Source of the DNA: Rhodospirillaceae bacterium
Lineage (GTDB): Bacteria > Pseudomonadota > Alphaproteobacteria > Rhodospirillales > JABHCV01
Direction: 5' to 3'
Assembly: GCA_018662005.1 (NCBI GenBank)
Contig: JABJHA010000002.1
Location: forward strand, 1 to 64,000
DNA length: 64,000 bases
The notes below the pieces were generated by a model, which had not been told where the DNA came from, did not search any database, and saw nothing but the letters and a program-made list of their open reading frames with translations. The translations under genes and the position numbers were made by a program. This document shows positions 1-24,938 of this stretch, in pieces. Each line of letters opens with the position of its first letter. Position 1 is the first letter of the stretch.

Positions 1-173
1 CCTGTGAAAAACGTGGTTTTTGCTACTTGCTCAGCTTTTTCCAACGTCTTTTCTTTAGTTGAAAATACCTTCCAACTATTATCTGCAGCTTTAACTCTAG
101 CCCTGATATTTTTGGTGCCATTGACGGTCTCTAGAACGATTTTACCGTCTTCAAACTCTGCCAGTTTCGCCAT
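1..173 (-). CDS. Partial CDS, probable tyrosine integrase N-terminus
   Basis: An open frame starts at an ATG at 173 and runs without a stop off the left edge (57 codons seen). It begins MAKLAEFEDGKIV and continues with a basic stretch (RARVK) and a charged helix (STKEKTLEKAEQVA). That resembles the N-terminal arm-binding region of phage-type integrases, which typically reads R-x-R-x-K ... TK-x-L-EA. The catalytic domain lies outside the window, so this is inference. GC is clearly lower than in the chromosomal genes to the right. The frame starts 30 bp after the CCA end of a tRNA-Leu gene on the same strand, the usual place for an integrase of a tRNA-targeting element. No good Shine-Dalgarno is seen; an in-frame upstream TTG is an alternative start. 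Confidence 0.55.
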   Translation of the reverse strand, partial: MAKLAEFEDGKIVLETVNGTKNIRARVKAADNSWKVFSTKEKTLEKAEQVAKTTFFT

Positions 174-202: not shown

Positions 203-506
203 TGGTGCCCCCGGCCCGAATCGAACGGGCACTCCCTTGCGAGAACCAGATTTTGAATCTGGCGCGTCTCATACCTACACTTGCTTTCACAAGCCACCCT
301 ATCAACTAGGGCTTGTGGGTCTGGACTATCCCATCATCCCGAAGGATGGAGTGATTATAGTCTCTGAACCTTCCCAAAACTTCTGGGCTTGGCTGCGGAT
401 TACCATATCATTTCTGACTTAGGCTTCCCCGCAATTTACACTCTGCATTCTCACCAATTACTTGATGAGTGGGCAAACATTTGTCTACCAGTTCCGCCAC
501 GGGGGC
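203..506 (-). tRNA. tRNA-Leu(CAA) interrupted by a group I intron in the D-loop
   Basis: Exon 1 is 487-506 (20 nt: acceptor GCCCCCG, TG, D-stem GCG, D-loop up to GGT). Exon 2 is 203-269 (67 nt, from AGACGCG to an encoded CCA). Joined, they give an 87-nt class II tRNA with a 7-bp acceptor stem, anticodon loop TTCAAAA (anticodon CAA, codon UUG), a long variable arm, a T-arm with TTCGATT and discriminator A. The 217 bp between the exons match a group I intron. A promoter lies about 100 bp upstream. It is probably the working tRNA-Leu(CAA) of this locus, because the neighbouring copy at 712-751 is truncated. Confidence 0.93.
270..486 (-). ncRNA. Group I (IC3-like) self-splicing intron, 217 nt, no ORF
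   Basis: On the minus strand the core elements are easy to read. P/Q strands are GCGGGGAAGCCTAA and AATCCGCAGCCAAG, where GCGG pairs with CCGC as P4. R/S strands are TTCAGAGACTATA and GATAGTCC, pairing as P7. P8 has a CATCC-TTCG-GGATG hairpin and P9 a CACAAGCC/GGCTTGTG stem. P1 forms between exon GGT plus intron AGAC and the guide GTTTGCC, placing a U-G wobble exactly at the 5' splice site. The intron ends in G. The 3' exon also begins AGAC, so the same guide can form P10. Layout and size resemble the small Azoarcus and Agrobacterium tRNA introns. No endonuclease gene is present. Confidence 0.93.
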
Positions 507-711: not shown

Positions 712-751
712 CTTTTGAATCCCGCGCGTCTACCAGTTCCGCCACAGGGGC
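712..751 (-). pseudogene. Truncated tRNA-Leu(CAA), 5' half only
   Basis: The minus strand reads GCCCCTGTGGCGGAACTGGT followed by AGACGCGCGGGATTCAAAA, a normal intronless tRNA-Leu from the acceptor 5' strand to the anticodon loop. It then runs into GCTAGTAATACG, which cannot pair with the CGGGA stem strand. The variable arm, T-arm and acceptor 3' strand are absent. Exon sequence is close to the intact gene at 203-506, including the preceding TGCAGT, but the D-loop is uninterrupted. Its upstream promoter is preserved, so this was the resident gene. Probably an integration event separated it from its 3' half. Confidence 0.85.
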
Positions 752-871: not shown

Positions 872-1453
872 GTGATCAGAGGCCTCTACGACTGGACCAT
901 GAAACTGGCAGAGCACCGCAATGCCTTGGCCGCATTGGCTTTGGTGTCGTTCATCGAAAGTTCGGTGTTCCCCATCCCCCCCGATATCCTGATTATCCCG
1001 ATGGTTCTGGCAGCCCGTGAAAAAGCCTGGACCATCGCCCTGATTTGCACGGTTGCTTCCGTCCTTGGCGGCGTCGCCGGTTACGGCATCGGTTATTTTC
1101 TTTATGAATCCATTGGCAGGGCGCTGCTCGATTTCTATGGCTACGCAGACAAATTCAGCCAGTTTCAAAATTATTACCACGAATGGGGCGCCTGGATCGT
1201 GGGCGGGGCCGGGCTGACACCCTTCCCCTACAAGGTTATCACCATCGCCAGTGGTGTCGCCGACCTGAATCTGGTCGTTTTCATCGTCGCCTCGGTGCTG
1301 TCGCGGGGCCTTCGCTTCTTTTTGGTCGCTGGCCTGCTGTGGTATTTCGGCGAACCGATCAGAGCCTTTATCGAAAAAAATCTGGGGCTCCTGGCAACCG
1401 CCTTTTTCGTCCTGCTGTTTGGTGGATTTGTCCTGATCAAGTTCCTGCATTAG
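872..1453 (+). CDS. DedA/YqaA-family (SNARE-associated) inner-membrane protein
   Basis: The protein has 193 residues from a GTG start with GGCGGAG about 10 bp upstream; an ATG at 899 is the alternative. It is polytopic. The segment ESSVFPIPPDILIIPM near residue 30 and the later GGAGLTPFPYKVITIASG are characteristic of the YqaA branch of the DedA superfamily, membrane proteins linked to lipid carrier recycling and envelope integrity. The exact substrate is unknown. It is the first chromosomal gene to the right of the tRNA-Leu junction. dsbB follows 9 bp downstream on the same strand, so the two are probably co-transcribed. Confidence 0.85.
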   Translation: MIRGLYDWTMKLAEHRNALAALALVSFIESSVFPIPPDILIIPMVLAAREKAWTIALICTVASVLGGVAGYGIGYFLYESIGRALLDFYGYADKFSQFQNYYHEWGAWIVGGAGLTPFPYKVITIASGVADLNLVVFIVASVLSRGLRFFLVAGLLWYFGEPIRAFIEKNLGLLATAFFVLLFGGFVLIKFLH

Positions 1454-24863: not shown

Positions 24864-24938
24864 GGGCGCGTAGCTCAGCGGGAGAGCACTCGCTTCACAC
24901 GCGAGGGGTCACTGGTTCAATCCCAGTCGTGCCCACCA
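24864..24938 (+). tRNA. tRNA-Val(CAC)
   Basis: The 75-nt gene includes an encoded CCA end. The acceptor GGGCGCG pairs with CGTGCCC with one G-U. The D-arm is GCTC-AGCGGGA-GAGC. The anticodon stem CTCGC/GCGAG surrounds TTCACAC, anticodon CAC, decoding GUG. The T-arm is ACTGG-TTCAATC-CCAGT. A strong terminator follows at once. Confidence 0.97.

Follow-up and report, generated by a model that had tools for sequence, protein, structure and literature searches.

The 64,000-nt stretch of DNA analysed here (the window, from genome G000, which is 96.5% complete) contains a tRNA-Leu(CAA) gene whose D-loop is interrupted by a group I intron that is predicted to be self-splicing, and the gene is very probably a replacement tRNA carried by an integrative element. 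The initial annotation of the window had called the D-loop group I intron, and this call was borne out by the core match and by the tRNA obtained from the joined exons; what it missed is the context, in which an integrative element appears to have brought the intron gene as a replacement tRNA, and the tRNA fragment close by appears to be part of the host gene that was broken. The features are listed by position; a slash marks the splice site.

3-173, minus strand: first 57 codons of a tyrosine integrase gene, cut by the contig end; the frame continues on contig C14.
203-506, minus strand: tRNA-Leu(CAA) gene with interrupted D-loop and encoded CCA.
203-269, minus strand: 3' exon, with AGAC at its start, anticodon CAA, and CCA at its end.
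270-486, minus strand: group I intron, 217 nt, without an endonuclease gene, recognised by the RF00028 match and by relatives L082 and L089.
472-478, minus strand: internal guide sequence GTTTGCC (P1 computed).
483-489, minus strand: 5' strand of P1, GGT/AGAC, with U.G at the splice site; 7/7 pairs with 472-478.
487-506, minus strand: 5' exon, GCCCCCGTGGCGGAACTGGT, with GGT of the D-loop at its end.
507-712, no strand: spacer, 206 bp, element end, probably part of an attachment-site arm, as judged from the same layout at L092.
713-751, minus strand: 5' half, now displaced, of the intronless host tRNA-Leu(CAA), cut in the anticodon loop after ATTCAAAA (713-720).
872-1453, plus strand: dedA-like gene, the host flank beside the native tRNA-Leu(CAA); a VTT domain was found in the L089 relative.

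The joined exons were read by ARAGORN as a normal 87-nt tRNA-Leu(CAA). The unspliced gene gave no tRNA call at 203-506 with either ARAGORN or the Rfam tRNA model, and the sole ARAGORN tRNA in the window was a tRNA-Val at 24864; such genes escape tRNA finding by these two routes, so that a genome may seem to be without a tRNA that it has. The intron's conserved catalytic core (P3-P8) matched Rfam Intron_gpI (RF00028) from 492 to 286 at 63.3 bits, E 1.1e-13 (cut-off 50), from the first to the last position of the model (1-253). This covariance search had been proposed earlier as a check, and over the whole 3.5-Mb genome it gave one match at E <= 0.001, which was the intron at 270-486.

The tetranucleotide AGAC stands at both junctions, leaving five possible cuts that each restore the tRNA; of the five, only the cut after GGT leaves U as the last base of the 5' exon together with G as the last base of the intron. 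The earlier boundary argument from the U.G pair in P1 and the final G is supported. The same boundaries were found in two further genomes. The junctions read GGT/AAATTAATTTG...GGTATG/AGAC in G149 (Rhodospirillales MAG BS30m-G14, loci L082/L092, also L053) and GGT/AAATAAATTTG...GGTAAG/AGAC in G316 (Rhodospirillaceae MAG NP992, locus L089). Because both have GGT/AAAT at the 5' junction instead of the AGAC repeat, the ambiguity is absent from them and the cut after GGT is supported without the U/G rule. All three copies are inserted after the D-loop GGT, which we take to be between U20 and A20a in tRNA numbering; their introns start differently, end in TATG or TAAG (i.e., with a final G), and restore the exact mature tRNA in each case.

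All three sequences keep a 7-bp P1 (GGU plus four intron bases, with GUUUGCC) that places U.G at the splice site, and two one-sided changes among them retain the pairing. The window intron has one 7/7 guide site; when its first 60 nt were shuffled by mononucleotide, 292 of 10000 shuffles also gave 7/7, so P1 by itself counts for only a modest amount, and more weight falls on its being conserved and on where it lies. The window guide is complementary to the ligated exons because the four intron bases are themselves AGAC, and its GUUU (GTTT) is able to pair with the 3' exon AGAC at 266-269, a candidate P10 that was read off the sequence. All listed ORFs of at least 60 aa that touch the intron extend through an exon, and the 217-nt intron holds no endonuclease gene of the kind carried by homing group I introns. 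The conserved core leads us to expect that the intron would be removed in the cell by two guanosine-started transesterifications, where P1 would set the 5' site, the final G would set the 3' site, and P10 would align the 3' exon AGAC on the same guide.

We considered if the tRNA could be dead, its insertion being decayed or unable to splice, given that the D-loop is an unusual site for such an intron and that activity of the intron gene is predicted only. This is very unlikely, as compensatory changes in the stems preserve tRNA pairing in all three copies, both the window and the G149 intron pass the Rfam cut-off, the L089 intron is 90.5% identical to that of the window over 211 nt, and the genome showed no further tRNA-Leu(CAA): its 37 tRNA matches include the leucine anticodons UAA, UAG, GAG and CAG, and besides the intron gene none with CAA, by ARAGORN or by reading. 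As a separate observation on the tRNA complement of G000, the region G000:C13:31156-31262 (L039) matches the Rfam tRNA model over 107 nt, with additional bases near the anticodon and no ARAGORN call, and is possibly a disturbed tRNA.

Bacterial tRNA group I introns are known at the anticodon loop, in tRNA-Leu(UAA), tRNA-Arg(CCU), tRNA-Ile(CAU) and tRNA-fMet. Like the window intron these are small group I introns that restore the tRNA exactly, the exon ending in U and the intron in G; they lie mostly at 37/38, whereas all three copies described above lie in the D-loop rather than at or next to the anticodon. The accessible part of PMC4033280 places the majority of bacterial tRNA group I introns at 37/38, and those of PMC8450103 and (for cyanobacteria) PMC5733544 likewise give the anticodon loop, in agreement with the initial annotation of the window.

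We examined how often the D-loop is interrupted among relatives. A search of 199 relatives with RF00028 matched 32 genomes with one match each, and loci are given for 30 of these, the window included. Introns were placed by patterns for an uninterrupted D-arm and by inspection of flank sequence; brute-force exon joining with ARAGORN at the 30 loci was dropped for this purpose because it was too permissive. In 28 of the 30 order loci the D-arm was uninterrupted and the tRNA, by eye, resumed at the anticodon stem; the two D-loop cases were the window and G149. A class-wide run matched 27 of 337 genomes, with 29 loci besides the window, of which 26 had an uninterrupted D-arm by the pattern and one (L177) by a slightly wider pattern, two were left without placement (L174, whose 5' side is lost at a contig end, and L176), and none was a D-loop case. 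Taking order and class together, G149 was the only other D-loop case among 58 other group I intron loci (two of them unplaceable). The anticodon-loop introns of the order (L044-L072) lie, by eye, in tRNA-Leu(UAA, CAA), Arg(CCU), Thr(CGU, GGU) and Lys(CUU), a wider tRNA range than the textbook list. The unplaced L176 (G527:C1:392306-392543) is a 73.8-bit group I match with no recognisable tRNA arm at its start, and may interrupt another kind of gene.

Searches by junction and by intron sequence gave similar results. A 3'-junction pattern with one mismatch allowed matched, among 317 order genomes, only G000, G149 and G316, and the latter two are interrupted at the same place; a search for other D-loop insertions had been proposed earlier. 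A related exact pattern matched 18 stretches of a genome-contig collection, two of them the D-loop introns L082 and L089 and 16 without a tRNA around the match by eye; such patterns would miss D-loop introns with another 3' end or core. The intron DNA compared with 385 class genomes gave seven matches: the window, five anticodon-loop introns by eye (L170 among them judged from its 3' junction only), and one chance match. The viral collection gave one stretch with the 3'-junction pattern and six with a guide-sequence pattern, none of which is the window intron by eye; two plasmid records matched, each over less than 30% of the query, and E. coli genomes gave no match. Among the literature matches listed, which were titles and abstract openings with subscription papers largely outside, a D-loop group I intron was named nowhere; novelty is not proven by this. 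The present cases add the D-loop to the sites of group I introns in bacterial tRNA genes.

The closest core seen was from another kind of gene. The window intron core was 80% identical over 85 nt (66.8 bits) to an intron between two DNA polymerase gene pieces of a Felixounavirus phage, group I by core match, whereas the best of the 28 anticodon-loop introns scored 55.4 bits. The likeness to the phage intron is confined to the core (about 84 nt) and the host gene is different; core covariation is thin with three D-loop cases. The scores hint at an origin separate from that of the anticodon-loop introns.

At 22 of the 29 other dedA loci, including L097 and L098 of the same genus, an intact intronless tRNA-Leu(CAA) lies no more than 1.5 kb from dedA, and in the window this native place is occupied by the displaced 5' half, not by the intron gene. 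The initial annotation had noted an intronless fragment about 200 bp away; it is intronless as stated, but belongs to a different tRNA-Leu(CAA) gene, being the 5' half (751-713) of that gene and not a copy of the intron gene. The stem strand of the half, CGGGA, does not pair with TCTGG of the intron gene, so that the latter is not the host gene made whole again. A search of G000 gave no host 3' half. We also considered that the intron lies in the host's own tRNA gene, beside which an element moved in, the fragment being an unrelated duplication. G316 gives this some encouragement, since its intron tRNA (L089) stands at the native dedA site and no half or integrase was seen there, on a contig that ends 631 bp beyond the gene; this arrangement is perhaps a resident end state. 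An own-gene origin is nevertheless improbable, because of the occupation of the native place by the half and its unpaired stem in the window, and because the host gene of G149 is complete in two halves apart from its intron gene.

The window's integrase was followed onto contig C14, which overlaps the window start by 108 bp with one mismatch and continues the reading frame; the adjacency of the two contigs rests on this overlap. The continued protein is of the same family as the G149 integrase (33% identity, E 2.6e-39). The 57-aa peptide in the window matched no Pfam family, and in its comparison with the G149 integrase the score was reached by at least 10 of 1000 shuffles, so that the identity of this start was accepted because the contig overlap settled it, the peptide similarity being unconvincing by itself. 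Beyond the integrase, at the end of G000:C14 (L139), is a truncated opposite-strand gene, sensor-like by eye, and no tRNA half, which suggests that the right end of the window's element was rearranged or lost. The spacer has too few repeat motifs for integrase arms to be recognised, and the integrase query found no confirmed relative in the viral collection.

G149 has the same order of parts: a cut half, 187 bp, the intron tRNA and, after it, a tyrosine integrase of 413 aa (PHROG 1, E 3.3e-32). Its host 3' half is on another contig; the two halves share the 8-bp core ATTCAAAA and rejoin to a perfect tRNA-Leu(CAA). Because both host halves rejoin perfectly, no half of a tRNA lies in the G149 attachment site, and the intron gene replaces the host tRNA in full. 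These findings bear on a classical arrangement in which the element brought an intron-bearing 5' half at its attP and the host 3' half restores the tRNA, as would fit, in outline, a complete tRNA with a displaced 5' half upstream; the accessible portion of PMC8371274 describes archaeal integrases whose attB is in the 5' half. Such an element would be only about 460 bp in the window, with the integrase outside it, and in G149 the scheme is refuted by a host 3' half that is elsewhere and completes the displaced half; we regard it as hardly credible. By the preferred reading, of a complete replacement gene on an integrative element, a tyrosine integrase would have crossed over in the anticodon loop of the host tRNA-Leu(CAA) and left a dead 5' half beside dedA, and the element would supply a complete, divergent tRNA-Leu(CAA) adjoining the integrase gene, repaying the tRNA destroyed. 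Integration in the window presumably took place as in G149, and an intron without an endonuclease gene would spread by riding the element.

The element resembles the Islander tRNA-targeting genomic islands, as outlined in the accessible part of PMC4383910, in its tyrosine integrase, anticodon-loop crossover and displaced tRNA fragment at one end. The attP of those islands carries a tRNA fragment that restores the gene, whereas in G149 ATTCAAAA is all that the element ends have in common with the halves, and the replacement tRNA is supplied whole; the G149 element is in this respect an exception to the rule that attP restores the target gene. The available text of PMC8371274 describes reconstitution of an intact tRNA gene after integration in archaea, and cites a proposal (Sugahara 2012) that attP carries archaeal tRNA introns between cells. 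Those elements are alike in that an integrating element would spread tRNA introns, but there the introns spread via attP, whereas the intron here is a bacterial one, of group I, in a replacement gene that stands apart. Tycheposons, by the description in the part of PMC10872708 available, are tyrosine recombinase elements that also adjoin a tRNA gene; that text mentions no intron, and the likeness is one of description. The present loci connect tRNA introns with integrative elements which disrupt a host tRNA and bring a substitute, and the spread of tRNA introns without an endonuclease becomes a testable question.

We examined if cut halves accompany intron tRNAs generally. An upstream cut 5' half of the same tRNA was found at 10 of the 30 order intron loci: L045, L051, L057, L062, L066, L067, L068 and L070 with one probe, and the window and L053/L092 counted separately because the first probe ran into their introns. 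None was found at 36 and 22 intronless control tRNA calls. One probe applied to both sets gave 9/30 intron loci (L053 missed) against 0/52 distinct intronless controls (30 distinct G000 tRNAs and 22 dedA-side tRNAs), a control count in which a shorter upstream 5' fragment seen by eye at L122 was missed by the probe. Integrases of the same family lie in L051, L053, L060 and L066, and that of the window on C14; four of the ten loci with halves have one, the window included by way of the overlap, and the other six have none in the stretch examined. Class-wide, one of 27 anchored intron tRNAs had an upstream half (L182); elsewhere in the class the introns may mostly be in resident genes, or the element may be gone. 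The control locus L122 (G020) is of interest in itself, having the shorter tRNA-Leu 5' fragment, then an intact intronless tRNA-Leu(CAA), and a same-family integrase in the locus, adjoining dedA.

The anticodon stems of the replacements (CCAGA/TCTGG in the window, TGGGA/TCCCA in G149) differ from the host CGGGA, and as an added idea, changed stems or the intron could hide the replacement from the integrase. More broadly, elements might kill the host tRNA at the anticodon loop and carry a replacement in which introns and compensated stem changes are kept to block their own integrase, an account that we hold to be unlikely. It was set aside as the main explanation: the account is weak for a D-loop intron because the 8-bp anticodon core, together with about 11 bp to its left, is left intact; a same-family integrase is in only four of the ten order loci with halves; and class-wide there was one half in 27. 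That the intron serves as a self-immunity device as well as a passenger, with a role against re-integration, is speculative.

Starting from the integrase, 35 of 314 genomes matched, and 30 loci were inspected by eye. A cut 5' half was present in 11 of the 30 (L136, L137, L140, L142, L143, L144, L147, L148, L151, L153, L156). A complete tRNA-Leu or tRNA-Thr was present in 12, upstream of the integrase, or downstream in L141, L147, L148 and L156; another complete tRNA was present in five, and 13 were without a complete tRNA, so not every integrase of the family has a replacement tRNA. Five of the 12 complete tRNA-Leu/tRNA-Thr loci have an intron, namely L136, L148 and L156 (by Rfam), L146 (the place of L060, 53.2 bits) and L147 (the place of L066, 40.8 bits, below the cut-off), and the other seven are intronless. 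Because replacements occur with and without introns, it is the replacement tRNA, not the intron, that marks these elements. In L151 (about 934-1440, read in the direction of the integrase), a complete intronless tRNA-Leu(CAA) is preceded by two consecutive displaced tRNA-Leu 5' halves, the second of which is a cut copy of this complete replacement. This suggests tandem integration into an intronless replacement; such a replacement seems to have been hit, as the self-immunity idea predicts.
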